64,000 nucleotides of DNA, from positions 186,001-250,000 of the forward strand of contig JADNYV010000023.1 in assembly GCA_015501055.1 (NCBI GenBank), written 5' to 3'. Below, in pieces: positions 1 through 62,167 of the stretch. The stretch's first letter is position 1. Each line of letters begins with the position of its first letter. The notes under the pieces were generated by a model. It saw only the letters and a list, made by a program, of their open reading frames with translations, had not been told where the DNA came from and searched no databases. The stretch is from Mucidula mucida (Eukaryota > Basidiomycota > Agaricomycetes > Agaricales > Physalacriaceae). The translations under genes were made by a program, and so were the position numbers.

Positions 1-140
1 CGACAAAACGAGACCATCCTCAATGTCATCCCACTGTTTCTTCAGGCCTTTAGAGAGCTGTTTACTGCAGTTCCAAGTTAGCAAGACTATCACGGATTTA
101 TGTCGAAAGCCTACTAGTAATTGTTAACAGTGGAAGACAT
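1..140 (-). CDS. Family Z protein, 5' end only (copy Z1, cut by window edge)
   Basis: This is the start of a family Z gene read leftward and truncated by the window edge. Exon 1 (140..115) encodes MSSTVNNY. A 50-nt intron (114..65) with a GTAGGC donor and CTGCAG acceptor follows, then exon 2 from 64 leftward, coding for a Lys-Gly-Leu-rich stretch that matches exon 2 of copies Z2 (26936) and Z3 (35922). The start is fixed by the conserved MSSTVN N-terminus and a TATA box 48 bp upstream, at the same spacing in all three copies. Function is unknown. Whether this copy is intact cannot be seen here. Confidence 0.7.
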
Positions 141-187
141 GGTGGTGAGATGTGTGTATGAAAGGCACGCAGAATGTGGGGGCAGTC

Positions 188-193
188 TTTATA
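188..193 (-). promoter_or_regulatory. TATA box of Z1
   Basis: TATAAA on the minus strand, 48 bp before the Z1 ATG. The identical motif and spacing occur before Z2 (26883) and Z3 (35869), which supports it as the core promoter. Confidence 0.6.
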
Positions 194-1176
194 TGCAGCC
201 CTCGGAACAATGTCAATGTCAAAGGGTCGTTGACTGTTTGTTCACCAATTTGGGCCGGTGGATTGCCAGCGATCGGTCCACATCCCAAAAGCGCAGAACA
301 AAGGCAGAGCTCAGGGTTGGTTAATCATCGAGAACCCGGGAAAGCTCCCGGTGGACAATGGCGGGCGACAGACAGACTCAGAGAAAAGACTTGAGCAGAG
401 AAAATAGATCCAGGCATCGTAGAAAATCTTGGGGTCACAGTGTTGCCAGCTGGCCCAAAAACAAACATGAGCGACGAGCGCAAACGGAGGTAACGCAAGT
501 TCCCACGCCTCAGTCGTGTCTTGATTCAACCGACTGGCTTTCATTGTCCTCTATGTAGTGACACCTAGGTAGCTGAGGCTCATAGCAAGCACAGCATGAG
601 GCTCTAATCCTAGAGAAAATTAATTGAGAAGCTCAGTCCTCACGCTCGTGTAATTCTGAGCCATGTAGCGGGTGCTCTTGGTACGTTGCCCGATTTGGCG
701 AACAATGGTCGAGGTGAGATGGCCACAATTCCCTACAAATTGACAATCCAATCGTCAGTCATTTGCACCGTTCCAGAGTAACGGTACCTACCGGGATTGT
801 ACCGGGACGACTCCGGGACTACATTACCTTCGCCATGTCTTCAAGTTGGGCCTGATGATGCATACAGTACATGTATTGCAGAGCATCAGAACTGTTATCG
901 AGGTCTCAAAGGGGAGCTTTAGATTATTAGAACACAGCGCGCAGTAGCACTTCCCCAGGGACCCCAGACAAGCATTATGGATGTTTTGATCGCCTTCGCT
1001 GCCCCGGTGCGCCGTATAGTAGGCTCTTTGAACACGCTTGAATGATTCTGACGACTACTTATGTCGTTTCATCCTGGATGTCTTGTACTCCGCCACCAAT
1101 GAATGGTGTATCTTCCTTCTTTTCTTTTCTTCCTACTACTCAATTCAAGCGAAAACGACTTTCAAGAGAGATAGCA

Positions 1177-2284
1177 TCACAGGTCAGCAGTATGGGAGGT
1201 CAGTCTACAGACAAGAACAAACAAATCCAACAGTACCGGGGACGCGAAAGGCACGCGCCCATCTCGCTTCACATCCTCGAGCGCATCCTCACACTCTGCC
1301 CTTATCCCTCTCTCCTTCTCAGCCTCCATCTGAGCGCTCCTCAGCTGCGACCGCATCACTGTGACCGATATCAAACAAGGATGAGAACAACAAATTTCCA
1401 CTCACAGAAAAATTCGGGGACCATGTCTGGCTTATCCGGTTCAAAAGGTAGCTCGCTCTGAAGGAGGGTTTCGTCACTAGTGAGTTCCTTGATGAGTTGC
1501 CGCGTATCTGCAAGCTCTTGTAATAGATGAGAGGCGGTTTGCGATCTTCGAGCGGGGGAACGGGAACGAGACCTTGAGCGAGTAGTCGTAGTTCTTGACT
1601 GGTGTCGTCTTCTGGGCGACATCTGTCGTCCGCGTCAGCTGTGAGTCAGACAAGGGTTCAACGTACCGTCGGCGTCACGGACTCGATATACGTTGTCGAT
1701 GGCTCTTCACGCAATTCCTGTGACTGTCAGCATAGTACCTCCGTCGAGTAGATGAAGTTCGTACCCTGGCGGAAGACACGAAACTTCATGGATAAGATGA
1801 TTGACAGCCCCATATCCTCTATCCACAACATACCTTTCAAACAGCTCTAGTGAAATCCTAATTGCTCACCATCATCCAATGGTCCCCTCGCCTCGCAGTT
1901 GAGAAACACTCACATACCCAACCTCCTCAACTCCGAAGCCGTCACCTGGCTTACCCTTCGTCCCGTGGGCAGCTCAGACCTCCGAAACTTCTCTCCCTTG
2001 AGTGTAGACAAGAGCGTACAGTGCAACATCTCTCACCATCAGCACGAGCCAAACTTGAAAGCATAGAAACTCACCGAATACGCATTCGTCTCCCAGAGTC
2101 CAAACTCTATCACGCATGGGCGCACGACCTTGATGCTCGAATGTTTTGGCCGCATAAAGTCCAGCGCATCGAAATCCTGCAAGAGCATCCTGGTTGCCTG
2201 TGCCAAGGTGGACTCTGAACATATCTCGGCTTTGGGAGCGGTGTATGTCGCGTGGACTTTGAGGAAGAGCATTCGCGGAGGCAT
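1177..2284 (-). CDS. Family A protein, copy A1 (uncharacterised)
   Basis: Exon 1 (2284..2075, 70 codons, phase 0 end) begins MPPRMLFLKVHATYTAP and carries the conserved A domain, ending in an IEFGLWET stretch. An RS-rich exon near 1622..1400 (RSRSRSRSPARRSQ) leads into a helical LLQELADTRQLIKEL segment. The last exon (about 1355..1177) is an alpha-helical stretch ending in the family signature GRVPF-x-SPVLLDLF. It is nearly collinear with A3 at 24811..25936. No family I know matches. The RS tract and coiled coil suggest a nuclear or RNA/protein-binding role, but that is inference. Middle exon limits are uncertain. Confidence 0.65.
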
Positions 2285-7947: not shown

Positions 7948-9225
7948 ATGAGCAATTCTGGCCGGTCCGTCGTGTTGACGGTTCAAGTGACATACAAGGA
8001 AGAGTCTGAAAAGGCGCGCGTGTGCGTTCGCGCAAAGATCAACTCGGCTGTTAATATGCTCTTGGCGGATCTCAAGGCGCTTGATTTTGTGAAGCCCAAG
8101 CGGGAGAACATCATGATCGTCGCGCCGGGTGTTGTGGAGTTTTGGTGGGAGACGCGGTTTCATTCGGTGTGCACCATTTAGTAAATTTGGTGTGTATTCT
8201 GTGTTGATGAGTGACTGCTAGACTCTGCACCGTACGCTGTTGTCCCGACTAGATGGGCAGGTATTTCATAGTCTGCCTGTGGGACGCAAGCTGCATATGA
8301 TCACGGGCGGTGAGAGAGCGGCGTTGGATATGTGCGTGCCCCACGTGCCATGATCATTTTAATAGTTGGTTTGATATGCCAATATGTGGCGATCCAGTCA
8401 TAGTCTATTGTTGTATGAAAAGTACGTTCTTTCTCTAGGGAGGGATTGATAGTTTGACGTTACTCACTATATAGGTTTGTCAACGACGACGGTCAACCGC
8501 ACTCAAACCACGGAGTGCGAGAGTCACCACCACCCGCAGATCCTATACTGCTTCCGTATGGGGATCCTATAAGGATCAGTCTTGTACCTCGAGCTGTGAG
8601 TCTCTAGCAGCCACCTCAAGTGCCATTCAGCTGTTTATGTTTGCTATTATCTAGAGACAAACAATTCCTCGGAGTCCGAGCTCAAGTTCAAGTTTGCCTC
8701 CTAAAGTCGGTTCACATTCATGGAACCGAACCGCAGGGTGACTTTTTGACGCGCCGCGCAGCCGTCCTCACTGTCGAGTTTACCCTCTAGAGTAAGTGGT
8801 GGTATGTATATGTCATTGACTTTTCCTGAAGCCGCGCGCGCAGTTACCTTCACCACGCTCGAGTTTATCATGGGAGCGCTCTCCCCATTCGCGAAGTAGC
8901 AGCTCAAGCGTTACCTCCGAGAGCCTCTTACAAGAACTGTCCGACATACGGCGGCATATCCTAGAGCTAGCCGCGTACGAATCGGAACTGCGTGCTGAGC
9001 TTTCATCAGAGCTCGTCCCCCATGAATTCTTGTTGCGCTTCCTCAAGATGGAAGCGGGAGAGGAGCGGAGGAGGGCGGCAGAGTGCCAGGGTGGCGTTGG
9101 ATGGTGTGAAGCGGGCGTGTCGTGTTCCATTCATGTGGCCCGGGCTGCTTGATCTCTTCATCGTGGTGTGTAACTTGTCCGCTGGGGTGGTCGATGAGAT
9201 TGTTGAACGTGGGGACTCGGATTGA
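7948..9225 (+). pseudogene. Family A protein, copy A2 (frameshifted near the end)
   Basis: Exon 1 (7948..8166, 73 codons, phase 0) encodes the A domain: a VLTVQVTYKEESEKARV strand region, a helix ending ADLKALDFVKPKREN, then IMIVAPGVVEFWWETRF. Exon 2 (8222..8331) encodes LHRTLLSRLDGQVF...ITGGERAALDM and ends in phase 2, as in A3 and A6. Later exons (about 8870..9060) give a coiled coil (LLQELSDIRRHILELAAY). The terminal signature CRVPF-x-x-PGLLDLF lies in the next frame (9090..9150), so one base is lost or gained near 9085 in a G/C-rich run. That may be an assembly error. Function unknown. Confidence 0.65.
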
Positions 9226-21461: not shown

Positions 21462-24131
21462 ATGCAAGTATTCTCATCGATAATCATGGTTATAATGTGG
21501 AGCGCTCAAGGCGTACTTGCGCAGCTTTGCGAACCGGTGTCGAGCGCCGCGTCGACCGTAGTGACTTCTATCAGTGCAACTACTACGGCGATAGCATCGA
21601 CAGTCACTCCTACAATAACTTTATCTGCCAGCTTTCCACCAGTTGGGTCTATCCCTCGGGACTACACACCAGAAGGCCTCGATAAACTTTGGGATATCGT
21701 ATGTCATCCGCAGACTATATTGTCGACTGTCTTAACCTCAAGAACTCAGGTCGGACCCGTTGAAGCGCCACCCTTCACTACTACGTGTGTCCCGTCTGCC
21801 CCAGTTACGCTGCCATCTACGCCACCACCTCTATATCCTTCGTTTTACGCGCCAGCCCCTCAAGATATCCTTCCCGACTTGAAGTTTCCGCCAGGATTCC
21901 TCTTTGGCGTCGCAACCGCCGCATATCAAGTCGAAGGTGCCGCGAAAGATGAAGGGAAAGGACCAACAATGTGGGATTGGGCGCCACGACAGTCAAACTT
22001 TGTCATAGACAACACGACGGGCGAGTCTTCCAAATCATCTCACCACCATATTAAATATTGTTTGACTTGTAGGAGACATTACTGATCTTCAATACTTCTT
22101 GTACAAAAAAGATGTGGAGCGGATAGCTGCTCTAGCTGTCACTGCACACTCCTTCTCGTAAGCCTTCGACGCGTAAAGCACATGATATCATGTTGATCAT
22201 TGTTGACGCCGCGTCGCAGCATCTCTTGGACAAGAATCCTTCCCTTCGGAGCCGCCGGTTCGCCTGTTAATGCCGCTGGCATTGACCATTATTCCGATGG
22301 TATGTTGACAAACTTTTTTAGACATTCCGGCGTTGATATTGGCTTGTAGTTATCGACTACCACTTGGCTCGCGGCATAGCCCCCGTGGTCACACTCTGTA
22401 CGCACATTTCAGGTCTATTATTCATTACTGACAGACGATTGGGTAGTCCACTGGGATACACCTCTCGCACTGCAAGCGTATTATGGAGGTTTCACGAGTC
22501 CTCAAATCGTCGATGATTTTGTCAAGTACGCTTTAGACTTATTCGTCTGGCTCCAAAGGTCGCGATCAGTTCTGACCGCTATTGAAGCTATGCAGTTACC
22601 GTCTTTAAGGCTTACAATGGACGCGTCAACACCTGGTATGGTTCCGGTTTTCCGTATAGAGCTTTCGTGCAGCTCACGTCCGACTCAAAGGTACACTTCA
22701 ACGAACCTCGCGTCTACTGCGGACAGATCGCCTCATATCCGTTCAGTTCGTCTCGGCTCCCCGACAGCTCTGCATTTCATTGACCTCACCATTGACCTAC
22801 CTATAGATGCCACGTTCGCTCCGGGTGTCAATGCGTCTATTGCTCCCTATCAATGTTCATACAATCTTCGTAAGGAGATCGCTTACTCGTAGGAATGAAT
22901 TCTCATCCATGAGCAGTGAAAGCCCATGCTGGTGCTGTAAGGGTAACATATCGACCTAAACGGTACTCTCAGATGTTGATGTCAACTCTAGCTTTCCGAG
23001 CATTGAACATTTCCGGCGAAATAGCCCTTAAAAACGATGACTTCATGTACGTTCCCATCTCCTGCCTCCTCCAGATCATATTTTAAGCCAAGAATTAGTG
23101 GCACACCGTGGAGGAGCAACAACACGGAAGACTCCCTTGCTGTCGAACGTCACGCTGCTTTTCAAATCGGCGTGTTTTCCGACCCTCTCTACACAACCGG
23201 TGACTGGCCCCAAATCTTGAAAGACACCCTCCCGGAATCATACCTTCCCCGCTTCACACCTGAAGAATCCGCCAGCATTCTTGGCTCAGCGGACTTCTAC
23301 GCTATCGATCCGTATCGATCTCAGTTCATCCGTGCGCCGACAGGGGGCATTGATGCTTGTGTGGCCAACTTCTCCCACCCTATGTGGCCTGTTTGCAACG
23401 AACGGGTGTCCTATGATGCCGGTTTTGGATGGGCAGCAGGCGTTTCGGCTGACCCGCTCGCGTCTTGGCTCCAGGCAACACCGGTCAATTTCCGCGCGTT
23501 TATGTCGGACTTGCATTCTCGTTGGCCGACGGATAAGATTGTGAGTATCGATGAGCCTGCATGTATCGACGTCAATTTGAACTCAGGTGTAGTACGTTTC
23601 CGAATTTGGGTTTGCTGAGCCGGGCGAGGGTGACCTAACGGATCTATTTCGCCTCAAGGAAGACGTGGCACGCACCAGTAAGATTCCTAATCGTCACATG
23701 GGCGCGTTCATGCAGATTGACATGGTATGTTACTGACAGATTACTTCATGACTTATCTCGGAGAAATGCTGCTTTCGATTCATGAGGATGGCGTGCCATT
23801 GGCAGGCGCTTTTGCTTGGGGTGATTACAATGCTAACCGGTCCTTGACGTGCTGTGCTCATTCATTCAACTCCAGCCATGCTTGATAATGCGGAGTGGAA
23901 TAGCGGCTTGAGGACTCGGTTAGTACCTTCCGCAGGCTGACGGACATTCATCGTACAAACCCTTACCACCTACGATAGATTCGGCATTCAATACGTCAAC
24001 TATACTACTCTCGAAAGGACGTACAAGCGTTCCGCGATCTCTCTCTGTGAGTGATTCAGAACCGACTTCTTCTTTAACCTCTGCTAATTTGAGACAAAGC
24101 CGAATTCTTTTCAACTCATATACATGATTAG
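21462..24131 (+). CDS. Secreted GH1 beta-glucosidase
   Basis: ATG 21462 gives a signal peptide ([20 protein letters not shown]) and a Ser/Thr-rich leader, then the GH1 fold: [15 protein letters not shown], the FNEPRVYCG acid/base loop (about 22700) and a [12 protein letters not shown] nucleophile strand after an intron ending CAGGTGTAG at 23592. The last exons read [40 protein letters not shown] and EFFSTHIHD, with stop at 24131. Usual GH1 enzymes have TENG at the nucleophile; here it is SEFG, as in a fungal subgroup. It hydrolyses beta-glucosides outside the cell, probably plant cell-wall or glycoside breakdown. About ten introns. Its 3' end has been copied twice into the neighbouring array (28243 and 37000). 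Confidence 0.85.
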
Positions 24132-24308
24132 TAATATAGTTCAAGTAGTACATACAAAATGTATTGCACGTCGACGCGTCGCTTGTGCGCTCAATTCTCC
24201 ATCACGTGATAGACTCCTAAGTCGTGTGAAACATTTGTCCAGAAATCATTGATCAACGACCACCGCTACAAACCCAAGTTTCTCCTTCTACTGCTCCCAC
24301 GAACGCTA

Positions 24309-24545
24309 TGGTATTTGAAAAGCAAAAATGGAATCCAGCGCTGGCGCCTGTCAAGGGTCGTTCTGACCTATGATTATTGACCGTCACATTCACGTATTTC
24401 GGATGGAAAATGAACCTCTTTTCGCCTACACAACCTGGAGAGTGGTTGCACTAAGCAATTTGGGAATGACATCCGTTGAACCCCAAAGGACAAATATATA
24501 CAGTGTGCCTTCTCCCGGTGTTGTAAAATTTTGGTTGGTTTTCTC
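24309..24545 (+). pseudogene. Family A exon-1 fragment (copy A-frag)
   Basis: ATG 24309 starts MVFEKQKWNPALAPVKG, matching exon 1 of A5 (37331) and A4. An inserted TGA triplet after SDL and further indels break it, and only scraps of the A domain remain, up to a degraded PGVV-x-FW end near 24535. It is fused directly to the 5' flank of A3. The upstream 24170..24308 flank (GTCGACGCGTCGC...CATCACGTGAT...) is shared with A4 and A5. Confidence 0.7.
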
Positions 24546-24810
24546 GTGCTTGACTGTGATGGTAAGAGGTAAACCGGTAAAGCTTCAAAGAGCGATCACA
24601 TACTTCCTCCGGTCCGAGTTGCAAACGACCGAGTCCCGACGATCAATGCGAGCTGTCGAGTCTTCTTATCTCCCACCATCATCAGCACGGCCTCAAAGCA
24701 AAGGTCAGATCAAACCTCAGATGTATCTTCAAGGCTTCCTGACTCTTCAGCCTACTAGTTGTTTTCATCTTGTTGTTCTCGTGGATCCATACTTCAAGCT
24801 CTAGGACCAG

Positions 24811-25936
24811 ATGCCTCCGCGAATGCTCTTACTCAAAGTCCACGCGACATACACCGCTCCCAAAGCCGAGATATGTTCAGAGTCCACGTTGGCACAGGCA
24901 ACCAGGATGCTATTACAGGATCTCGATGCGCTGGACTTTATGCGGCCAAAGTATTCGAGCATCAAGGTCGTGCGCCCATCCGTGATAGAGTTTGGACTCT
25001 GGGAGACGGATGTGTATTCAGTGAGTTTCTACTAAGATTTCCAGTTTGGTTTGTGCTAACTTTGTTGAGAGATGCTGCACTGTACGCTCTTGTCTACACT
25101 CAAGGGAGAGAAGTTTCGGAGGTCTGAGCTGCCCACGGGACGGAGGGTAAGCCAGGTGACGGGCTCTGAGTTGAGGAGGTTGGGTATGTGAGTGTTTCTC
25201 AATTGCGAGAGGACCATTGGATGATGGTGAGCGATTAGGGTTTCGCTAGAGCTGTTCGAAAGGTATGTTGTGGATAGAGGATACGGGGCTGTCAATCATA
25301 TTACCCATGAAGTTTCGTGTCTTCCGCTAGGGTGAGAACTTTCTTCACTTGTCGAAGGTGCTATGCTAATGTAGTCACAGGAATTGCGCGAAGAGCCATC
25401 GACGATGAATAACGAGTATTCAACGCCAACGGTACGTTCAAACTTTGTCCACCTCACAGCTGACGCGGACGACAGATGTCGCCCAGAAGACGATACCGGT
25501 CGACAACTATTAGTACTAGTCGCTCAAGGTCAAGGTCCCGTTCTCGTTCCCCCGCACGACGATCGCAAATCGTCTCCCATCTATTACAAGAGCTTGCAGA
25601 TACGCGTCAGCGCATCAAGGAACTCGCTAGTGACGAAACTCTCCTTCACAGCGGGTTACCTTTCGAACCGGATGAGCCAGACATGATTCCTGAAGTTTTC
25701 TGTGAGTGAATTTTGTTTATCTCGGATTCCCTATTTGATATATATCGGTCACAGTGATGCAGTCGCAGCTGAGGAGCGCGAAGATGGAGGCTGAGAAGGA
25801 GAGAGAGATAAAGGCAGAGTGCGAGAATGCGCTCGAGGAGATAAAGCGAGATGGACGAGTGCCATTCTCGTCCCCATTGGTGCTGGAATTGTTTCTTCTT
25901 GTCTGTAGACTGACCTCCCGTACTGCTGACTTGTGA
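24811..25936 (+). CDS. Family A protein, copy A3 (uncharacterised)
   Basis: Exon 1 (24811..25020, 70 codons) begins MPPRMLLLKVHATYTAP and ends VIEFGLWETDVYS, phase 0. Exon 2 (25072..25187, after a GCTAAC branch site) reads LHCTLLSTLKGEKF...TGSELRRLGM, ending in phase 2. A later exon carries an 18-residue RS tract (RSRSRSRSRSRSPARRSQ) and LLQELADTRQRIKELA. The last exon (25754..25936) is a charged helix closing in GRVPF-x-SPLVLELF. No disruption was seen, so this is a candidate functional copy. It resembles A1 most. SR-like tracts occur in splicing and nuclear-speckle proteins, but that link is inference only. Confidence 0.7.
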
Positions 25937-26882
25937 TGCTATCGTATTTGCTCGAGTTGAGTAGAAATTGAGTAGTAATGCTTAACAGAAACGAAGGAGG
26001 ATATACTATTCGTTGGTGGCGAAAACATGACATCCAGGAAGAGTAGAGATAGCTGTAAGAAATATCTAAGCGTGTTCAAGGAGCCTACTATACGGCGCAC
26101 CAGTAAAGGCGACCAAGACATTCAGAATGCTTGTCCGGGGTTGCTGGTGTGAGTGCGACTGCGCGCCGTGTTCTGATAATCTATAGCTGATGTTCGTCTG
26201 GAATGCCAGGTACTCTATGCAAGATCAAAAGCAAGACATGGCGAAGGTACTACTGTATCGTGATGTAGTCGTCGCGGTACAATACCGGTACGTATCGTGT
26301 ATCTGGAACGGTGCAAATGAACGACGATTTAACTGCCAATGTGTAGATTTGTGGCCTTGACCATTGTTCGCCAAATGGGGCAACGTACCAAGAGCGCGCC
26401 GTTAGATGGCTCAGAATTACATGAGCGTGAGGACTGAGCTTCTCAATTGATTTTTTCTGAGATTAGAATCTCATTCTATGCTTTCTATGAACCTCAGCGA
26501 CCTAGGTGTCCTTACATAGAGGACAATGAAAGCCAGTCGGTTGAACCAAGACACGACTGAGGCGTGGGAGCATGCGTTACCTCCGGCTTGCGCTCGTCGC
26601 TCATGTTCATTTTTGTGCCAGCTGGCAACACTGTGACCCCAGGATTTTCTACGATGCCTGGATCTATTTTCTCTGCTCCAGTCTTTTCTCTGAGTCTGTC
26701 TGTTGCCCGCGATTAGCTTTCCCGGGTTCTCGATGGTCTATGCACCATTAACCAACCCATGAGCTCTGCCTTTGTTCTACGCTTTTGGGATGTGGACCGA
26801 TCGATTGCAATTATCCACCGGCCCAAATTGGTGAACAAACAGTCAACGACCCTTTGACATTGACATTGTTCCGAGGGCTGCG

Positions 26883-26888
26883 TATAAA
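26883..26888 (+). promoter_or_regulatory. TATA box of Z2
   Basis: TATAAA 48 bp before the Z2 ATG, conserved with Z1 and Z3. Confidence 0.6.
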
Positions 26889-26935
26889 GACTGCCCCCAC
26901 ATTCTGCGTCTCTTTCATACACAACTCTCGCCACC

Positions 26936-27873
26936 ATGTCTTCCACTGTTAACAATTACTAGTAGGTTTTCGACACGAATCCGTAGTAGTCTTGCTCACT
27001 CGGAACTGCAGTAAATCGCTCTCTAAAGGCCTGGAGAAACAGTGGGATGACATTGAGGATGGTCTCGTTTTGTCGCCGTACGTTCATTCGTTACTGTCTG
27101 GCATCAATGTGTTTTGGCTGACAACGCTTTGTAGGTTGCGTCCGGCGGTGTTCACAGAGGACGAAGTAGCGCGGGCCGCGCTTCAAGTTGTCCGTCCAAT
27201 AATTCCAGCTCCTCCCGTAGTGCCAACTCCTCGGTGGGTAGACTGCAAGCTTTGTCGGTCTCGAGCTGACGTATCGTTGAATTGGCTCATCAGACCTGCG
27301 CCTCTCTCCCAAGTCAATCAATGCGACGAAGAGCTCGTCAAACCTTTGTCTGAACTTCCTTGGCCATTGCTAGGGAAATTCGAAGACACGGCCATAGATG
27401 GAGAATCCTCCGATGAGGAGGAGGAGGAAAACCATGAGTGCGTTCTATCATGTTTTATGATCCCTCTCCACTATCTCAACTTGTGTTTTTCAGTCCCGCC
27501 CCGCCGAAGAAGGACAAAGTCAAGACGCGAGCGCACCAGAAGGCGTTTCTCGCATCCCTTCAAGCTACGCCCGCTGTTCTGAAAAAGAACAACGAGACCC
27601 GGGCGCGTTCGACAACGACGACGGGCGGCTCGCGTGGCTTCAGCGCGAGAAATACATAAAGGCCGATAGCATTGAGCAGTCCAGTGTATCTGTGGGGTTT
27701 TCTCAACTCAGATCCTGAAGCCGAAGGCGAAGAAGGGGAAGTGCACGAGGAAGCGAAATTGCGCTTATACCCCTACTGCCTGGATTGCCCATCGTCAGAA
27801 CTGTCCCTTCATCTACAAGAAGTGGCTTCAGGAGAAGGGGTTGACCGACGAAACGTGGTCATTCCGTGGTTGA
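26936..27873 (+). pseudogene. Family Z copy Z2, frameshifted
   Basis: The same four-exon plan as Z3: MSSTVNNY exon, short exon 2, then LRPAVFTEDEVARAALQV and an acidic SSDEEEEE patch. After the third intron the frame runs through PAPPKKDKVKTRAHQKAFL but is lost near 27600 by a one-base difference from Z3, and a second disruption near 27690 replaces the CACC cysteine region. The last codons (to GGT TGA, 27871..27873) are recognisable. It has lost about 45 bp of the basic PKKRARH segment relative to Z3. Probably a dead copy. Confidence 0.7.
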
Positions 27874-28242
27874 GCTACTTTGTAGTGTAAGTATTGCTAT
27901 GTTGTTGTCGTTATATTGTACTGCCTTTATATTGTACTGTTTGCTATCGAATTGAGTTTGGAATTGCATGACTTGTTCTGCGAAAGAGGAGGAAAGACTG
28001 TCACTCACGGGAAGGTGGTGTTAACGGTAACGGTAAGCCAGCCTTCCTTGTGCTGGAAGTCGGAGTCGGTGATGCACTAAGTACAGGAGTCACGACTGAA
28101 AACGGGAAGCGGGACATCCTTATGGAAGCCATTTTCATTGAAGGGAAAATTCGAGAATGACATTGAATCCAAAACTTTCCAAGATAAGAAGCTCTTCCAG
28201 TGACCAACCAGTGACCTGCTAGTCAGAAAGACATCTCATCCT

Positions 28243-28345
28243 CTGCTGACTTGCGACAAAGCCGCTTTCTTCTCAACTCATCTGGGTGATTAGTAGTATG
28301 CTTCAAGCAATAGTACACACAAAGTGTTTTTTGCACGTTGACGCG
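28243..28345 (+). pseudogene. Beta-glucosidase 3'-end fragment 1
   Basis: About 100 bp matching the last intron end, last exon and early 3' UTR of the GH1 gene (24078..24180): the acceptor ACAAAGCCG, TTC(T)TCTCAACTCAT, GATTAGTA and a CACGT(T/C)GACGCGTCGC stretch. It lies directly upstream of A4. Confidence 0.7.
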
Positions 28346-28456
28346 TCGCTCTCAGTTTCCGCGCGCACGTCCCATCACGTGACGGTACTCAAAAGTCGTG
28401 TGAAACAAATTTCTCAACGACCACCACTACAAACCCTTTCTCCTTCTGCTGCTCTC

Positions 28457-29925
28457 ATGAACGCTTTGGTATTCGAAAAGCAAAAAATGGAACCCAGCGC
28501 TGGCACCTGCCAAGGGTCCTAGTGACCTATTACTGACCGTCGTATTCACTATTTCGGATGGAAAATGAATCTCTTCTTGCCACACAACCTGGAGAGCGGT
28601 TACCCCTCGAAGCGATTAAAGTCCTCGAGGAAGACCTCAGTAGTTTGGGAATGACCTCCGCTAACCCCAAAAGCAAAAATATATATGTTTCTTCTCCCGG
28701 TGTTGTGCCGCAGGCTAAGAAGGGCGTGCATTGGTTTTCTCGCGTTTGGCATACTATTCTAAAGCTCTACCTTTACAGGTGAATTACCGTTTCTAGAAGC
28801 GAAAACCAGAGGTGTTAACGTGTTCGGTACCTTGTCGAACAACTTAACGGATACTGAATTGAAGCGATGGTTGATGTAAGCCGTATGTCCCTCAATGTAG
28901 CAGTGCGCTCGCATTGATGTGTCCTTCAAGCTTATCGACCAGCATGACAGAAGAGTATGTTGTGTCTTTCCGAAACAGTAGCACTAACAAGTGAAACATT
29001 CAATAGACGTGGCGAAACAGAACCGCTTTTCTTGCGAAACATCCTACCTGCTCAGAAAGCAATCGACTCTCGGAGTTTCTTCTCACAGTCCGTCTCCATG
29101 AAGCATGAAGTCACAGAACCATCGCTAAGCGATGTCGCGAATCCCACTCCAGGGATACGAGGTCCAGCGAACAGTCTTCATTTGGAGATCGACGCACCGG
29201 AACGAAGACACAGTATTAGAGAAATGTCCGCAATGGTATGTTTCAACATTCACTCATGAATCTGAACTTTCAGTTGATCTCATACCGTGTCCAGGAACTC
29301 TCTTCAGACGACGACAGCAACGCTTCTTTCATCAGTCATTGTCTGTTCTTGCCTTGTTGGCTTTGACCGAGCGTGGTATTTTAGTCTTTGAAGTGCAAAC
29401 ACACCTCAACCTTCAATCTACCTTCGAAGAGACAAGCTGTCACGCGTTTTGGACCTTCACCCGACGAAGAACCTTGATTCCGCATCCAGACCGAGCTTCT
29501 CAATGTTCAAAAACGCATGAGAGAACTTGCCATACGCGAACGAGAGCTTTCGGTGCAGCTAAATGATGCCGCAACGTCGAACGTATCAACAACAGATATG
29601 GCGCCTTCTGAGCTTTGTAAGTGCCACATTGGTTCGTGGAATCTTACTGAAACTGCTCGCAGCGGCAATTACTCAAGTGCGTTTGTTACAAACAGAACTT
29701 GCCGCCAAGCGCCAGAAGAGAAAGGAATCTGAGGCCATCATAAGTGACATTCGAAGAGAATGTCGCGCTCCGTTTGTCGTACCAGCACTATTGGATGTTT
29801 TCTTTGCGTGTCGCACGCCACCAACTCAGCGATGGACATATGATGGCGTAGCAGCGATGAAGGAGTACAAGGACGCAGGCACATCATGGGACACTTTGCA
29901 CCCACTTACGCCCGTTTCTCGCTAG
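28457..29925 (+). pseudogene. Family A copy A4, degenerate
   Basis: A close relative of A5 with several indels in exon 1: an extra A after GAAAAGC, a lost GT in TTCAC(GT)ATTTC and a lost T before ACACAACC. Only later parts stay readable: AIKVLEEDLSSLGMTSA, YVSSPGVV, then FLRNILPAQKAID..., GPANSLHLEIDAPERRHSI and the C-terminal LLQTELAAKRQKRKE...RRECRAPFVVPALLDVF. A polar tail runs on to 29925. The Penelope-like element inserted just past its coding end (target 29881..29933). Confidence 0.65.
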
Positions 29926-29933
29926 GTAATCTT
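29881..29933 (+). repeat. Target-site duplication, left copy (53 bp)
   Basis: Identical over 53 bp to 34654..34706 and flanking the retroelement. The corresponding uninterrupted site survives downstream of A5 at about 38763..38818, in diverged form, which shows what the empty site looked like. Confidence 0.8.
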
Positions 29934-29982
29934 GAGAGGGAGAGAGACGTGTCGGGAAGAGAAATGCGAGGGCCGCGACGTT
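29934..29982 (-). repeat. Inverted pseudo-LTR fragment at the left end
   Basis: Reverse complement of 30397..30445 with one mismatch. Its inner edge coincides with the stem III/cleavage region of the hammerhead, suggesting that the inverted end was primed from, or ends at, the ribozyme cleavage product. Confidence 0.75.
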
Positions 29983-30437
29983 GCGTCGCGTCGCGGCTCG
30001 TCCCTCGGGTGCGGGATAAAAAGACAATTCTTGGCAGACGTACACTTCTTGTACTTTATTGACTGTACTACATTTGACACCCCCTGCGCTTAATGGAGAC
30101 ATTAGCAGCGGAGTAAAATGACTGGGGATGCTTACCTATAATCTCCGTCTGTTCTACAGACCCAGGAAGCACACCGGTCACGTCAGATGGCGAACGTTAA
30201 ATCGCGCGCGCCGTCAAAAGCCCGAGCGAGTGCAAGACCAGTCAGAATTACCGTTGAGCTCTCGATAGATCGAGCTTCGGAAAATGGCTGCGGCAGTGTT
30301 TCGGTTTGGCCCTCGGAGGCTACTACCAAACAAAGCGCTGTGATGACGAGGACACAGCCGCCTGATGAGTCTCTTTAGACGAAACGTTTGGCCTCCAACG
30401 TCGCGGCCCTCGCATTTCTCTTCCCGACGCGTCTCTC
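29983..30437 (+). repeat. Left pseudo-LTR of the Penelope-like element
   Basis: About 455 bp, nearly identical to 33996..34450. It contains a hammerhead ribozyme near its 3' end. A 63-codon open frame at 30187 is shared by both copies but is probably incidental. Confidence 0.8.
30357..30407 (+). ncRNA. Hammerhead ribozyme, left copy
   Basis: Read 5' to 3': stem I strand GCCGC; core CTGATGA; stem II GTCT/AGAC with loop CTTT; core GAAA; stem III CGTT/AACG with an 8-nt loop; TC; stem I strand GCGGC. All three stems pair perfectly and the conserved core is complete, giving a type I hammerhead with predicted cleavage after C30402. Its place in a Penelope pseudo-LTR matches known occurrences. It would cut tandem or read-through transcripts at unit boundaries. 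Confidence 0.9.
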
Positions 30438-30606
30438 TCCCTCTCTCAACTCTCTCGTGTTTAAATCGGAACCCGCGCCCAGCACCCGTTCTCGCATACC
30501 AGCACCCTCATCATCCCAATCAATCTGCTTTGAACGCGTCTTCACGCATCTCGCCGTTCGCCAGCCACGCACCACCATCGCCTGCTCGCCATCGTCATCT
30601 CACGCC

Positions 30607-33600
30607 ATGCAAGAACCCGCCTCAAAGAAAGCAAGACTCGACTCAACTACCGGGAAGTCGGCTGGTGCCCCATCCACCGCTACCAGCCCAGTCAACAACC
30701 CAACCCTCCCGGCTGCATGGTTGGCAGAGGTTGCAAAGCTTCCCGCCGACAATGTCACGCCAATCCCTTCGCAAGCCATCAAATCATTCCTGGAGATCTA
30801 CAAGGGTACCCTGACGGACTTCAGCTCTGCCCTTAAGTCTCACCAGGAGGCTTCCGCACGCACAGAGAAGTTTACCCAGAGCTGCAACAATGGCGCAATC
30901 CCCAAGCGAGTCACGCGACAGTTTGGGGTACCGCCCTTCCAATTCAGTAAGGAGGCCGAGCTTGTAAAAGACGACCGCCTGAAGGAAGCCGCCAAAGCAA
31001 TGGATGACGCACTTGTGCAATGCCATACCGCTGCTGTCACGTACCTGAAAGCTGCTTATGCCCTCAACGAGGAGGTGTACGGCACGCAGGCGGACGTAAA
31101 GGTCGCCACCGCAAGCTTCCAAAATGATATAGAGGCCTACGTTGGCAGCATATCTAGTTGTGTCGGTGGCACTGACACGGCGGTGTGGCTCCCGTATCTG
31201 GCAGCGATCATGCGCGCTCTCGAGTGTGACCTTCGCAATGCTAGTTGGGACTTCGCCGATCAACACAAGCGCGCTACTGAAGAGGCAGCCGCCAAGGCCA
31301 CCGCTGTAGCCCTTGCTAAAGAATCGGCGGAGATGGCTAACTCGGCTAAACCTATTGGGGAGCTCGTGAAGGAACAAGTCAACCTCACGCTCCAGGACGA
31401 GAAGTTTATGTTGAATTGGCTAGAGAGTAGAAATCGTACGCACGACTCTCATGTCCACTCCTTTTCTCGTACTGAAATTGAGTCTCTGTTCCGCCCTTCT
31501 AGTGAAGACGGTCCCGAAGACGACAGCAGATTCAGACACGAAGAAGAAGAAGTCTGCACCGTCAAACGCGTCCGGCTCCAAGAACGACAACGCAAAGAAA
31601 GCTCAGAGTACCTCGAACGGAGGGAAACAGGCTGCGAAGTCGAACAGGGAGAAGAAGACAGACGGCAATTCGAAGACGACGAAAGCGAAAGCTCCGAAGA
31701 CGGGCAAGGACAAGGCGCCAGTCACAAGCGAAAGCGACGACAACGGAGACGCCATGGACATCGACGAGAATACCCCGTTGAAGAAACAAGGAAAGGGCAA
31801 GAATGCCGGGGAGAACAAGCGCAAGCGGACGGCAAGTAGACGTCGCGCGAGCTGTACACCCGCATATTGTCACCTCCTGGGTACGTCCTCAGGGCACTCG
31901 GTTTCATCACCACAACCCTGATACGTATCCAGATCTTTTCTTCTCTTCTGGTCCCGCGCTTCAGTCCCGTTTTATCTTCAGTCAAATGTCCCCGTTGTAT
32001 CATGACACTCGAATTATGAATCGTTCATTTCACAACATGACAGATGTCCGTCTGACCCCCGGACAGGCTAAGATATTGGCGTTAAACACTAAGTTTACAC
32101 CACGACCACCTCCAACAAAGGTTGAGCATGCTAAAACCGCTGTCGACGACTTCATACGCCGTTTACGACTTCGGGAAGACGCGGCCCATAGGTCCAAGGT
32201 AGAACAACAAACAATCTGTTCGTTCCTCGGTGTTCAGGAAATGGAGAAAGGGCAACCACGATATGTTCCCGGATTTCATGTGCCTAGACCTGACGCAGAG
32301 GGCCCACCAATGAATGACTATGTCGAAAGCGCACTAGCTGTGTTTGCCGATAGACTTGAGGTGGAGGTTATGAGCAAGCAAGCCCTTAGGGTTCACCCCA
32401 ATATTAACCACGACGAGCTAACTAGCCTACTTAAGTTGATGTCGGACCGCGAGGTGCTTGCACTTCCGGCTGACAAAAACCTAGGGCTGTGCCTAGTTAC
32501 CACGGAATGGTATCATAATACTGGGTTGAAGCTTCTCGTCAACCCGTCATATTTTGAGACCGTTGAACCTGATCTATGCGTACTACGAGAGGCTCTGCAG
32601 AAAATCATTGGCAAAGCCAAAGGTCTTCTAACGAAGCAACAGTACAACTGGATCCTCCAACCTTGTGAAGAGGTCTGGATGAAGGTTCCAACACTCAAAG
32701 TCATCCCAAAGATTCATAAGCTCCCTGTTTCTGGCCGGCCAATCGTCCCGACGTTTAACACGCTGCTGGCTAACGCGTCGGCTTGGGTTGACCATCAAAT
32801 CAAGCCCCATCTCTCAGACTTCCCTTGGATCCTTCCAGACTCAAAGACGTTCTGCCGTCAGATTCTGAACCTGGATCTCAAGGTGGGGGAAGAGTACTGG
32901 CTGGTCTCTGGCGATGTTGTTGCAATGTATCCTAACATCCCGGTGGAGGATGGGATACAGGCTATAGCCGATATCCTGCGCACACAGAATATTTTGTTCA
33001 ACAACCCACTAGAAGCACGGCTGTTGGAGTGAAGTCCCGAAAGGAACTCACGATACTACTCTTACGTTTAGTACTCACCAACAACTACGTCCAGTTTGGG
33101 GGCCGCTACTTCCTACAGGTCATGGGAACTGCCATGGGTACGGCATGCGCACCAACGTATGCAAACCTGTTCCTCGCCAAATACAAAGAAGCGCCGCTGT
33201 TGGAAATGAAAGACACTATATGTTATTACGGCCGCTTCATTGATGATGTCTTCGCCATCATCAAAGGCAGTCTTAGCGATGTCCAACGCTTCCAGCAACG
33301 GTTCGGGGCTCTACACCCGAATATGAAGATGGAATGGTCCCAGTCACAACGGTCCCTACCGTTCTTGGATATACAAGTCTTGCTTGAGCGAGATATGGGC
33401 ACACTACCCTCTGTACGAAGATACAAGATAGCCACCCAAGTATACCAGAAAGTGATGAATGCCTACCTCTACATCCCATGGGCCTCCAGCCATTCGGAAG
33501 CATCCAAGCGTGCATGGATCCGAGGAGAGCTGATCAGATATGTCCGTATCTGTTCAAAGGAAGAGGATTTTGCAAAAATCCGTACAACCTTCCTGCAGCG

Positions 33601-33946
33601 CCTCCGAGCTAGAGGATACCCTGGTAGATGGCTCACTAACGTCTTTGATGATGTGACCTATTCAGCGGAACGGCCTAAGGCCTTGGTGGATAACTCACCA
33701 CCTGTCGTGTCTGACGACCCGCCGATCCATGTCCTCAAGTTGACCCATAACCCACTCTGGGACACCGTAGATTTCGGTCCTGAGTGGCGCCAGTTGGAAA
33801 GAACCTGGGCGGATTCTGGTACTAGCATCCCAGATATCCAATTCCTTGCTTCATTCAAAAAACCAACAGCACTGGGTGACAAGTTGAACCGCCACAACTT
33901 AGACGCCATGCGAGCTTATCACAATGCTTTAGCAGTGAACGTTTAG
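30607..33946 (+). pseudogene. Penelope-like element polyprotein with reverse transcriptase (one frameshift)
   Basis: ATG 30607 opens MQEPASKKARLDS. Exon 1 ends at 31435; an intron at 31436..31502 (67 nt) keeps frame into a Lys/Ser/Ala-rich, NLS-like exon (31503..31880); a second intron (31881..31932, 52 nt) joins it in frame to the RT exon. RT features are LALPADKNLG, PKIHKLPVSGRPIV, motif A SGDVVAMYPNIP, motif B GTAMGTACAPTYANLFL, catalytic YGRFIDDVFAI and LPFLDIQV, ending near FLASFKKPTALGDKL as in Penelope RTs. One base is missing between motifs A and B (33027..33032), where GAG TGA ends the frame and the rest continues one frame over. It encodes roughly 1,070 residues. The element is probably inactive as it stands, unless the break is an assembly error. 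Confidence 0.85.
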
Positions 33947-33995
33947 AACGGTTTTTTCCCCACCCTCCATCCGAGCCGCGACGCGACCTACGGTC

Positions 33996-34450
33996 GCGTC
34001 ACATCGCAGCTCGTCCCTCGGGTGCGGGATAAAAAGACAATTCTTGGCAGACGTACACTTCTTGTACTTTATTGACTGTACTACATTTGACACCCCCTGC
34101 GCTTAATGGAGACATTAGCAGCGGAGTAAAATGACTGGGGATGCTTACCTATAATCTCCGTCTGTTCTACAGACCCAGGAAGCACACCGGTCACGTCAGA
34201 TGGCGAACGTTAAATCGCGCGCACCGTCAAAAGCCCGAGCGAGTGCAAGACCAGTCAGAATTACCGTTGAGCTCTCGATAGATCGAGCTTCGGAAAATGG
34301 CTGCGGCAGTGTTTCGGTTTGGCCCTCGGAGGCTACTACCAAACAAAGCGCTGTGATGACGAGGACACAGCCGCCTGATGAGTCTCTTTAGACGAAACGT
34401 TTGGCCTCCAACGTCGCGGCCCTCGCATTTCTCTTCCCGACGCGTCTCTC
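33996..34450 (+). repeat. Right pseudo-LTR of the Penelope-like element
   Basis: Matches 29983..30437 at a 4,013-bp offset with only a few differences. Just before it, 33972..34012 forms a GC-rich imperfect hairpin (GAGCCGCGACGCGACC against GGTCGCGTCACATCGCAGCTC in parts). Confidence 0.8.
34370..34420 (+). ncRNA. Hammerhead ribozyme, right copy
   Basis: The same sequence and stems as 30357..30407, with core CTGATGA at 34375..34381 and GAAA at 34394..34397. Predicted cleavage is after C34415. Two intact copies 4,013 bp apart define the transposition unit. Confidence 0.9.
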
Positions 34451-34653
34451 GCTTGTTCAAGCCTTCCCTCAGCCGTCCAAGCATCGACATGCTTGGATAT
34501 GGCTTACCGTTACCACGGTATGATGCTCGCTTTGATAATTGTGAGTACTATACTGACGACTTTTTACAGAGAATCTCACGAACGACGGGTCCCTAGCGTA
34601 TGCGCCGCAACTGCGCGAATTTGCATCCCAAATTGGATTCATGGCTACAACAG
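34451..34653 (+). other. Unexplained 203-bp segment inside the insertion, possibly captured
   Basis: Lies between the right pseudo-LTR and the right target repeat and is absent from the left end and from the homologous empty site near A5. It reads as plausible coding sequence (PSIDMLGYGLPLPRYDARFD), a GTGAGT...TTTTACAG intron of 28 nt, then LTNDGSLAYAPQLREFASQ. No source is seen in the window. It could be 3'-transduced host transcript or the remnant of another element. Confidence 0.5.
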
Positions 34654-34706
34654 ACATCATGGGACACTTTGCACCCACTTACGCCCGTTTCTCGCTAGGT
34701 AATCTT
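34654..34706 (+). repeat. Target-site duplication, right copy (53 bp)
   Basis: Identical to 29881..29933. Beyond it (34707..35035) the A4 downstream flank resumes, matching the region after A5 (38819..39030). Confidence 0.8.
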
Positions 34707-35039
34707 TCATCCTATGTCGGTTTTGGTATGCTTTACTCATACCAAACACCTAGCATTTCTCGCCGATTAAGTCGCAGAGCCGCTCAAGCTTTTTGTGCCA
34801 CGTAGCTCCGGTTTCAATGAAAAACCATGTCCTATCTTTGTCTAGATAATTTCGCATAATTCGGAAGCACAGACATGGCTTACAGAGTGTTATCAAAAGT
34901 TCAGGCATCATACAGCCTGAGGGGTTGAGGGACTTCCAGAAAAGAAGGACAATAATGGTATTCATCGCGGCGGTAGCGCGTACAAGACTCCAGGAAGAAA
35001 CGAGATAGTCGTCAAATCATTCTCAAGTGTATTCAAATA

Positions 35040-35921
35040 GCCTACTATACGGCGCACCAGTAAAGGCGACCAAGACATTCAGAATGCTTGTCCGGGGTTG
35101 CTGATGTGAGTGCGACTGCGCGCCGTGTTCTGATAATCTAAAGCTCCTCTTTTAGACCACGATGTTCGTCTGGAATGCCATGTACTCTATGCAAGATCAA
35201 GAGCAAGACATGGCGAAGGTACTACTGTATCGTGATGTAGTCCCGGAGTCGTCGCGGTACAATCCCGGTACGTATCGTGTATCTGGAACGGTGCAAATGA
35301 ACGACGATTTAACTGCCAATGTGTAGATTTGTGGCCTTGACCATTGTTCGCCAAATGGGGCAACGTACCAAGAGCGCGCCGTTACGTGGCTCAGAATTAC
35401 ATGAGCGTGAGGACTGAGCTTCTCAATTGATTTTTTCTGGGATTAGAACCTCATTCTATGCTTTCTATGAACCTCAGCGACCTAGGTGTCCTTACATAGA
35501 GGACAATGAAAGCCAGTCGGTTGAACCAAGACACGACTGAGGCGTGGGAACTTGCGTTACCTCCGGCTTGCGCTCGTCGCTCATGTTCATTTTTGTGCCA
35601 GCTGGCAACACTGTGACCCCAGGATTTTCTACGATGCCTGGATCTATTTTCTCTGCTCAAGTCTTTTCTCTGAGTCTGTCTGTTGCCCGCCATTGTCCAC
35701 CGGGAGCTTTCCCGGGTTCTCGATGGTCTATGCACCCGTAGAAATCATTGATCAACCCCTTTGTTCTGCGCTTTTGGAATGTGGACCGATCGCTGGCAAG
35801 TATTATCCACCGGCCCAAATTGGTGGACAAACAGTCGACGACCCTTTGGCATTGTTCCGAGGGCTGCGTATAAAGACTGCCCCCACATTCTGCGTCTCTT
35901 TCATACACACATCTCACCACC
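35040..35921 (+). repeat. Upstream region of Z3, third copy of the Z flank
   Basis: Collinear with 26080..26935 and, inverted, with 1030..141. High similarity extends about 880 bp upstream of the Z start codon, so each Z copy travelled with its whole promoter. TATAAA is at 35869. Confidence 0.75.
35869..35874 (+). promoter_or_regulatory. TATA box of Z3
   Basis: TATAAA 48 bp upstream of the Z3 ATG, with the same spacing as Z1 and Z2. Confidence 0.6.
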
Positions 35922-36867
35922 ATGTCTTCCACTGTTAACAGCTATTAGTAGGTTTTCGACACGAATTCTTGGTATTCTGGCTGACTCGGAACTGCAGTAA
36001 GCAACTCTCGAAAGGGCTTGAAGGCCAGTTCAATGATCTTGTTTTGTCGCCGTAAGTTCACCTGTTATCTGGCATCAATGTGTTTTCGCTGACAACGCTT
36101 TGTAGGTTGCGTCCGGCGGTGTTCACAGAGGACGAAGTAGCGCGGGCCGCGAGTCTTCAAGTTGTCCCTCGCGTAGTCTCAGCTTCTCAGTGGGTAGACT
36201 TCAAGCCTTGTCAATATCGAGCTGATGGATTGTTGAATAGGCTCATCAGCCGTACTCCGCTCTCGCAGAACAACCAAACCGACGAAGGGCTCCTTTCAAT
36301 CTTGGGCAAACGTCCTTGGCCACTCCTTGGCACATTTGAGGAGAAGGCAATCGATGGTATATCGTCCGATGAGGAGGAAGAACAATAGTAAGTTCTATTT
36401 CTTATGCTTTCTCTCTACTATCTTAACTGGTGTTTTACAGTCCCGCCCCGCCGAAGAAACGTGCTCGGCATTCCACTGCCCCGACGGTCACGAACGACAA
36501 AATTAAGACGCGCTCGCACCAGCAAGAGTTTCTTGCGTCCCTACAAGCTACGCCCGCTGCTCTAAAGAAGAACAGCGAGACGGAAGGGCTCTTTGACGAC
36601 AACGGGCGGCTCGCGTGGCTTCAACGCGAGAAATACATTAAGACGGATAGCATCAAAGAGTTCAGCGTTGCCTGCGCGTGCTGCTCTGAGGAACAAATGA
36701 CGAAGCCGAAGGCGAAGAAGAAAGAGGGCACTCGAGGCTCGGGGAAGAGAACTGCTCCGTACACGCCTACTGCCTGGCTTGCACATCGGAAGAAGTGCCC
36801 ATTCATCTACCAACACTGGATCGGGGAGATGGGGTTGACGGATGAATCGTGGTCATTCCGTGGTTGA
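35922..36867 (+). CDS. Family Z protein, copy Z3 (intact, 262 residues)
   Basis: Four exons, 35922..35947, 35998..36051, 36106..36387 and 36441..36867, total 789 nt, all with GT-AG introns and an unbroken frame. The protein begins MSSTVNSYYKQLSKGL, then LRPAVFTEDEVARAASLQV, an acidic SSDEEEEQ patch, a basic PPKKRARH (NLS-like) segment and NGRLAWLQREKYIKTDSI. The C-terminus has FSVACACC and, 32 residues later, WLAHRKKCPF. This Cys-x-Cys-Cys ... His-x3-Cys arrangement is reminiscent of the zinc-finger-like ends seen in many uncharacterised basidiomycete proteins. A nuclear or DNA-binding role is possible, but I do not recognise the family. It is the only clearly complete Z copy here. Confidence 0.75.
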
Positions 36868-36999
36868 GCTACAAGTCGCTTTTTATGGAGTAAGTATTGC
36901 TATGTTGTTGTCGTTGTATTGTACCAGTGCTTTCATATCGTGTTGTTATCTGCTATCGAATTGAGTTTGGAGTCGCATGACTTAGTGAGATTCCGAATC

Positions 37000-37205
37000 G
37001 TCACACCGGCGCGTTAAGGCAGACTAAAGTGGCAAAACACTGACAGATTATTTACCTCGGAGAAACGCTGCTTTCGATTCACGTCCCATTAGCAGGAGCT
37101 TTCGCTTGGGGTCAGTACAATTATTACCGGTCCTTGATGTGCTGTGCGTATTCATTCAATTTCAGCCATGCTTGATAACGGGAGTGGGATAGCCTTAAGG
37201 ACTCG
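37000..37205 (+). pseudogene. Beta-glucosidase 3'-end fragment 2
   Basis: About 200 bp collinear with 23680..23925 of the GH1 gene, including the intron donor side (AGATTCC(G/T)AATCGTCAC), the LGE-LLSIH exon, the GCTTTCGCTTGGGGT exon end and the CCATGCTTGATAA start of the next exon. It carries internal deletions and is clearly non-coding now. It lies directly upstream of A5. Confidence 0.75.
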
Positions 37206-37330
37206 GTTGCGTCCAAATCTCCATCACGTGATGTGGCTCCTATAAATCGTGAGAACTAATTTGAAATTATCCGCGAGATACCAACAACCACCACTTCAAA
37301 CCCTAATTTTCTACTGCTATCACGAACGTT

Positions 37331-38728
37331 ATGGTATTCGAAAATCGCACGTGGAACCCAGCGCTGGCGTCTGTCAAGGGTCGTGCTGACCTATTATTGA
37401 CAGCCACATTCACGTATTTCGGATGGAAAGCGAACCTGTTCTCGCCTACACAACCTGGACAAAAGATGCATTCCGAAGCGATCAAAGTCCTCGAAGAAGA
37501 CCTAAAAACACTGGGAATGACATCTGCTAGACCCAAAAGGACAAATATCTATGTTCCATCTCCCGGTGTTGTGATATTCTGGTGGTATCAACAGTCTAAG
37601 AAGGGCGTGCGTTGGTTTTCTCGTGTTTGGCGTACTACTCTAAATTCCACCTTCACAGACGGTTTACCGTTTGCTTGAAGTGAAAATCCGAGGTGTTAAA
37701 CCCACGCCCGGGAGCGGTTCCACGTGGAACAACTTAACGGACGATGATCTGAAGCGACTGTCGATGTAAGCCGTATTTTTTTAGTGTGGCAGTGCACTCA
37801 CATTGACGTGTCCTCCAAGCTTATCGACCAGCATGACAGAAGAGTGTGTAGCGTCTCCCGGAACATTGGATCTAAGAAGTGAACTCTCATTAGACGTGGC
37901 GAAACAGAACCGATTTTCTTGCGAAACGTACGACCTGTTCAGCAAGCAATCGAGTTTCGGAGTTTCTTCGCACAGCCCGTCCCCATCAAGCAGGAAGCCA
38001 CAGAACCATCGCTGAGCGAAGTGGCGAATCCCATTTCAGGGATACGAGGTCCCGCGAACAGCCTTCATCTGGAGATCGACGCACCGGAACGAAGACACAG
38101 TATCAGAGAAATGTCCACGATGGTATGTTTCAACATCCAAAGATGAATTTGAACTCTTAGCTGATCGCATACCGCGTCCAGGAGCTCTCTTCAGACGACG
38201 ACAACACTTCCGTCGTTAGTCATTATCTGTTCTCGCCTCATTGGCTTTGACCGAGTGTAAACTTCTAGTCTTTGAAGCGTAAACACACCTCAACCTTCGA
38301 TTTACCTTCGAAGAGACAAGCTGTCACGCGTTTTGGACCTTCACTCGACGAGGAACCTCAATTCCGCATCCAGACCGAGCTTCTCGATGTTCGAAAACGC
38401 ATGAGAGAACTTGCCATACGCGAACAAGAGCTTTCGGTGCAGCTAAATGATGTCGCAACGTCCGACGTCTCAACAACAGACATGGCGCCTTCTGAGCTTT
38501 GTACGTGCCATGTTGGTTTGTAGTATCTTACTGAAACTGCTCGCAGCGGCAAACACTCAAGTGCGCTTGTTACAAACAGAACTCGCCGCCGAGCGCCAAA
38601 AAAGAAAGGAGTCCGAGGCCATCATAAGTGATATTCGAAGAGAATGTCGCGCTCCGTTTGTCGTACCAGCACTATTGGATGCTTTTCTTTCCGTGTCACA
38701 CGCCACCAACTCATCAATGAAAGTATGA
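37331..38728 (+). CDS. Family A protein, copy A5 (uncharacterised, apparently intact)
   Basis: Exon 1 starts MVFENRTWNPALASVKG, then LLLTATFTYFGWKANLF, AIKVLEEDLKTLGMTSA and IYVPSPGVVIFWW. A phase-0 acceptor (TTCACAG, 37657) leads to VYRLLEVKIRG...LTDDDLKRLS, ending in phase 2. Later exons give RGETEPIFLRNVRPVQQAI, a conserved LHLEIDAPERRHSIREMS, SLKRKHTSTFDLPSKRQAV (NLS-like), a coiled coil (RKRMRELAIREQELSVQL) and a last exon TQVRLLQTELAAERQKRKE ending CRAPFVVPALLDAF. No forced frameshift was needed, but the first donor is uncertain (GTTTGG after WFSR). About 380 residues, likely nuclear if the basic motif works as an NLS. Confidence 0.7.
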
Positions 38729-39515
38729 TGGCGTAGCTGTAATAGCGGAGTACAAACTAACACGCGCATCGTGGGACACCTTGGTCCCACGTTAAGCCCG
38801 TTTCTTGCTAGGTAAACTTCCATCATATGTTGATTCTGGTACGCTTTCTCAGGAGGAGCACCTAGCATATCTGGCCGATTCGTTTCGCAGAGCCACCCAA
38901 AAACTCTACGTTTCGTAGATCCGATTACTGCGACGAGAAGTCCTGTATTATTTGCTTCGTGGAAAGCTGCATGGTTCGAAAGCACAGACGTAGTACTACT
39001 ACAACGTCTACAAATGCAGCAATTGTATTCATACGGATAGTATCTGAAAAGGCTCAGCCTCTCTTCAATATTCTACCCTTTCCACTAAAAAAGCAGCGTA
39101 CAAAACAAAATCAGAAGAAGAGGGGCAAAACGAACCTTTTCGGCGAGACGTACGCAGACTGAGACACGGCCAAGTGGAAGATGCCCGTGGATGTTCAAAA
39201 CTGACCCCTTCAAACGAGTCTGACGCGACCCATCTCCTGTAGAGCTATAGGAGTGTCATGAGCTGTGGACTACACGAACTTGAAGTCTAAGGTCAGGTCC
39301 GATCTTGGGAGCGAAATGTGAGCAAAAGACAATGTACACCCATATGCGAGCGGACATGTGCTATTCAGTCGTCGTTTCGTTGGCTGGGGCCTCGACAATA
39401 CTAGCGCCCTGCACAATTTCACGAATGAACTTGTAGCCAGAAATTTTGAACAAACATAGGACCAATCTCCTCTATTGACACGCAGCTCTTTACATTTGGA
39501 CACTCAGGCATTCAA
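38729..39515. other. Intergenic, end of the A/Z array
   Basis: The first ~300 bp match the flank downstream of A4 (34654..34990). The rest has no recognised gene or repeat. The A/Z duplication appears to end here. Confidence 0.5.
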
Positions 39516-53566: not shown

Positions 53567-54003
53567 ATGCAAGCTCCCCCACCATTGTTCGGTGACGGTA
53601 ATGGTTGCTACAGAATCCATGTCACAGGCAACAGTGGTACAGTTCATTTTCTCCAAGTCCAAAGCGCTTCATTACCATCTATGATACAGGAAGTGGAAAG
53701 GCAAGATATCTATCACTCACTTCATCCCCGTATCTGCGAATACTCTTTGCATAGACCACGTTGGGTAGGCAGCTCTCTGAGATTCTTGGACTACCGCACA
53801 TCTCTCTGGACACATTGTTCTGGGAGCCTGTGTGGAAACAGGCGTCGAATGAAGAATTCCAGGCAAAGCTTCGCGCTGCGATGGGCGCGTGACACGAGGA
53901 GCGAAAGAAGGTGCTTTGGGACAAGATGCGGTGTATAGGCGGTACTGGGGATGAATTAGAGCGTTGGATCCATGACGTAGAAGCGATGATTCGCAATCAA
54001 TAA
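53567..54003 (+). pseudogene. P-loop nucleoside/adenylate kinase-like gene, internally deleted copy
   Basis: Paralogue of 57492..56746 in opposite orientation. It keeps exon 1 (MQAPPPLFGDGNGC...TGNSG), the 11-nt microexon (53690..53700), its GC-AG intron and the start of exon 3 (LPHISLDTLFWEP). Then about 340 bp are missing: ATGGGCGCG runs straight into TGACACGAGGAGCG, giving an immediate stop. The C-terminal residues (GGTGDELERWIHDVEAMI) remain recognisable. The deletion removes most of the kinase core. Confidence 0.75.
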
Positions 54004-56370: not shown

Positions 56371-56519
56371 GATCTTTTCTTAGTAGCGGGTCGTTGCAAG
56401 CTGAATTCCATCTCTACTAGAACTACTTCCCAGATCTAAGTCTGTCAATACTGTCCTTACTGTTGTATACTGTGAATGAAAGATTTTTGTGTTGTCTGTA
56501 TATCGTGGAAGCTGAGCGT

Positions 56520-60987: not shown

Positions 60988-62167
60988 ATGGCTCCGCGCG
61001 AGCATCTCGACATCGTCGTATGTCTGCGCTACTTCCCGTCCAAGACAGCGTGGCTCCACGCGCGCAGCAAGAAGATGCTAGCAGCGGACTTGCGGAAAGA
61101 GCTGGACTTGCTCAAGCTTCCGCATCCCCCAGAGATCAATATCGCAGAACCCGATGCGCAGGGGCTGGTGGTGTTCTTCTGGACGACGTACAGAAATTCG
61201 GTACGTGTTGATTTCAAGTTTGTGGCACTGGGGGCTGGCTGACGGGCGCCGTCTAGCCTCTGTATCATATCGTCAGTTCTGTCGCAGCCAGCCAGGACAT
61301 GGATCCAATCAAGACTGTCAAAGAAGCTTTGAGCATGTGGGCCTCGGTTCCTACTATATCTGTGTAGTAGTTCTGATCGACGATATAGTCAACAGATACA
61401 AGTCTCCGAGGCGTGCGTCTGTTCCCGATGCTGTCCTGCGTATTGATTTTCTTTCATGGCTTCAAGACCGCCGTCTCTGCTTCTAGATGTGGGGCCGTTT
61501 CCACCGAGGTCTACCAAGCGTTCAATCAATGAAATGGAAGACGACAACGCCGAATATGGCCCGGAGCGGTAAGATATGTTCGCGCGTAATTCAAATGTTC
61601 TCATGCGTTTTCTCAGACTCAAGAAGCGGGATTCCGATACAAGGCATCTACTCGCCACGTCTTTCATCCGCATTTGCTCACCGTTCATTCACAGAGTCCA
61701 ACATTCTTCGCCGGACAAGCCCAAAACGCTATTTGATTTTTTCCCTGATGCCGAATCTCTTGCTGCCACCAGCAGTACTACTACGGGCCAGGAGGAGAGT
61801 GCAACGACACGCGAATTTTGGAACACGCGACGCAAGCTGAACGCGGCCTTTGCGCGCGCACAGGACATCGAACGCCAGTTGGAGGAAATGGGTGTGTTCA
61901 CGCCGCACGACGACCATTCCGTGGAAGGTGAGGCTCTGTGACAAGTTTTTCCCCAGACGTACGCGTTATGCTGAGATTGCCGCAGATCTTCCGATGCTCC
62001 TCGCGAAAGCCCAGGACGAGCTTATGCGTGAGCAAAAGTCGAGAAGAGATATCGAGCGCGTGTTGCAGGACGTGTTGAGGGAGTGCGAGGAGCCGAGGGT
62101 TGTGCCGCAGTTGATCAAGATGATGTATGCGACTGCTGAAGCGCGGGAGGGTCGTGTCGTGCAGTAG
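60988..62167 (+). CDS. Family A protein, copy A6 (divergent)
   Basis: Exon 1 (60988..61200, 71 codons, phase 0) reads MAPREHLDIVVCLRYFPSKT, LAADLRKELDLLKLPHP, INIAEPDAQGLVVFFWTTY. Exon 2 (61257..61336) reads PLYHIVSSVAASQD...VKEALSM, ending in phase 2 exactly as in A2 and A3. A later exon has PFPPRSTKRSINEMEDDNAE, then FWNTRRKLNAAFARAQDIER and a last exon LLAKAQDELMREQKSRRDI ending RECEEPRVVPQLIKMM and a stop at 62167. The terminal motif keeps R-x-C-x-x-P-x-VVP-x-L-x-x-M. Sequence identity to other copies is low but the architecture is the same. No break was needed. Function unknown. Confidence 0.65.

Follow-up and report, generated by a model that had tools for sequence, protein, structure and literature searches.

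An array of two intermingled, unrelated gene families in Mucidula mucida

Genes of the A and Z families at the locus

The stretch of Mucidula mucida DNA analysed here (the window: 64,000 nucleotides, positions 186,001 to 250,000 of the forward strand of contig JADNYV010000023.1, assembly GCA_015501055.1) carries an array in which genes of two unrelated uncharacterised families, A and Z, are intermingled. The array had been reported in a first-pass annotation; it is real and its coordinates are right. The A gene A5 (37331..38728, + strand), which has seven exons in the model and corresponds to NCBI protein P0001, is intact. The reading frame of A3 (24811..25936, +) is open in a hand-anchored model of six exons and 265 residues, its stop position being read from the sequence. 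A4 (28457..29840, +) is an A5-type pseudogene with indels and a stop, and A-frag (24308..24570, +), found in two frames by tblastn with P0002, is a relic of an A5-type N-terminal exon. A-left (1180..2284, −), an inverted gene of the A3 type placed by tblastn and hand-anchored models, is broken in both presumed haplotypes. Two further divergent members, A8 (7948..9213, +, approximate limits read off the sequence after tblastn) and A61 (60988..62167, +, limits approximate), have no Z within 5 kb. The contig, called C194 in the haplotype comparisons, holds eight A members and one relic. An A gene with seemingly two tandem N-domains is found at about C194:152150-153916 (in C194:146001-156000), divergent to another A gene.

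On the same strand as A3, A4 and A5, the parts 26936..27873 and 35922..36867 (both +) begin where Z2 and Z3 had been placed, the stop of the latter being taken from the open reading frame list. The parts directly upstream of them span 26060..26935 and 35020..35921 (both +), and a further part spans 141..1050 (−). At the left edge, within the part 1..140, lies an exact spliced match to P0011 (−), with exons at 115-140 and -1 to 64, continuing further left.

The two families had been proposed to multiply as a unit. They were probably copied jointly at this locus, but the proposal fails outside it: elsewhere in the genome none of the six other A loci has a Z inside 5 kb and none of the 11 other Z contigs has an A match, so that recurrent adjacency at independent loci, the mark of an obligate pair, was not found. 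In Hymenopellis, A and Z are on separate contigs, which are fragments, and linkage there is not fully excluded. Since the families stand apart elsewhere in the same genome, A and Z look like neighbours copied together, not an obligate pair. Their intermingling would result from local copying and flipping of DNA stretches carrying both.

The birth-and-death pattern noticed earlier is a correct reading of the locus, which contains several paralogs, some intact and others decayed, that have exchanged sequence or recombined unequally. It resembles birth-and-death tandem clusters in general in its local copies of differing divergence, intact or broken, and in the exchange between them; it differs from them in that two unrelated families are interleaved, and partly inverted, via shared segmental duplication. 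Uncharacterised A-related proteins of other Agaricales (such as Mycena belliarum B0H15DRAFT_460799 and Hymenopellis radicata BDZ89DRAFT_1072738) share with A the N-domain, the linker and a coiled coil at the C-terminus, and the motif RECRxPFVVPxLLDAF in this coiled coil is common to A and these relatives. The gathering of so many members on one contig may distinguish Mucidula, in a comparison where the search elsewhere scored only candidates sharing most words. A thus stands out as a protein family conserved in Agaricales yet hardly annotated, whose N-terminal domain is predicted with confidence and which forms a concentrated cluster in Mucidula; a ferredoxin-like fold is a candidate for this domain.

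Divergence between the presumed haplotypes

Several points weigh against joint local copying of neighbours. Three units diverge by 3.0-4.7% between the presumed haplotypes, against 0.25% outside them, which exceeds the prediction for plain decay. Exchange with paralogs may explain the divergence of A-left and A4; A8 has no blastn paralog in the compared 104 kb of C194, the whole genome not having been searched with A8 DNA. In addition, functions for A and Z would be drawn from predicted shape and motif only, and the structure prediction for Z failed (mean predicted local distance difference test score, pLDDT, 38.9).

Gene bodies differ by 5.68% in A-left, 5.47% in A4, 3.4% in A8 and 0.14% in A5. 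Between C194 and contig C816, the A8 region (window 7200-8850) diverges by 4-6% ahead of the gene and in its middle part, between blocks that are ~99.5-100% identical, the differences amounting to 28/698 upstream, 40/650 in the middle, 4/275 in the N-exon and 0/349, plus one single-base indel, in the C part. At a further A locus, present on contigs C851 (L053, L055, L057) and C1042 (L054, L056, L058), the A copies are 86% identical. The copy on C851 is apparently collinear and that on C1042 rearranged, with its upstream part inverted behind the C-terminal part; over the adjoining 3.8 kb the two contigs are 98.8% identical, but this DNA is flipped with respect to A.

Balancing selection might act on the A cluster alone, a polymorphic locus for compatibility or immunity in which Z would be a passenger, an explanation favoured by the raised values of A-left, A4 and A8 over the 0.25% outside the units and by the contrast between the C851/C1042 A copies and the DNA beside them. 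We consider it unlikely: A5 hardly diverges, the differences in A8 are more abundant upstream and in the middle than in the N-exon and C part, opposite to the pattern expected of a recognition gene, and a circular-shift control was reached by 99/2000 for an idea that is post hoc to the data. Moreover, each place is represented by two sequences only, and the C1042 copy, being rearranged, may not be an allele.

Retroelement insertion and neighbouring DNA

A retroelement insertion (29934..34653, +) lies between the copies of a 53-bp target-site duplication, the left one in the 3′ flank of A4 (29881..29933, +) and the right one at 34654..34706 (+); contig C495 represents the empty site. From its motifs and repeat layout we take the insert to be putatively Penelope-like. 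It contains direct repeats (29980-30437 and 33993-34450), the right one being followed by a tail of 203 bp (34451-34653), and reverse transcriptase (RT)-like open reading frames at 31803-33946. Two RT profiles matched below the cut-off (RVT_1, E 0.024; group II RT, E 0.0013), and no GIY-YIG match was found in the three frames scanned. Further copies of the repeat are on C529, C188, C433 and C970. The RT-like frames without a GIY-YIG match and the flanking direct repeats resemble endonuclease-deficient fungal Penelope-like elements, which PMC3846280 describes as telomere-associated, whereas this insert sits within a gene cluster and has a 53-bp target-site duplication.

C495 also carries an element of 5.7 kb (L009 8536 to L010 4237) that has inverted ends and a short target-site duplication; it is missing from the window, where the corresponding site is 39421-39431. 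A GH1 (beta-glucosidase-like) gene adjoins the array (21462..24100, +, limits approximate), Pfam PF00232 matching its open reading frame 23037-23618 (E 6.2e-8). By repeat comparison, a stretch upstream of A5 (36984..37208, +) resembles its 3′ end (23677-23921; 78% over 245 columns). Separate from the array, inverted repeat pairs at 53562-57497 (arms of 133, 140, 106 and 66 nt, 85-91%) frame 2.4-3.7 kb.

Recognition systems and apparent coupling

The comparison with self/non-self recognition loci in the first-pass annotation has one weak supporting observation and is unproven. The Pfam families listed for A or Z include no HET, NACHT or related domain of fungal allorecognition (HET/NLR type); only one Pfam domain was assigned among the A proteins, the coiled-coil family HAP1_N (PF04849) in P0032. 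A secreted effector, to be recognised by a signal peptide and diversifying selection, is a further candidate reading. Among 13 Homeobox_KN matches at E 0.1 or better, none is on C194, which speaks against a matA homeodomain locus; the four over the cut-off are on C826, C86, C451 and C209.

A and Z could still be a functional pair, for example a killer with its protector or the two parts of a self/non-self recognition system, with adjacency kept by selection and the array serving as an arsenal of variants. This is very improbable given the separation of the families at the six other A loci and 11 other Z contigs of this genome and in Hymenopellis, the purifying selection and the absence, from the Pfam families listed, of any domain typical of known recognition proteins. 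An assembly artefact, in which misjoined dikaryon haplotypes would mimic tandem or inverted copies within a single contig, is hardly credible, even if C816 and C495 resemble second-haplotype contigs starting within the Z repeat.

The array itself is a clean case in which two unrelated gene families appear coupled because segmental duplication copies neighbours, and it cautions against reading function from adjacency.
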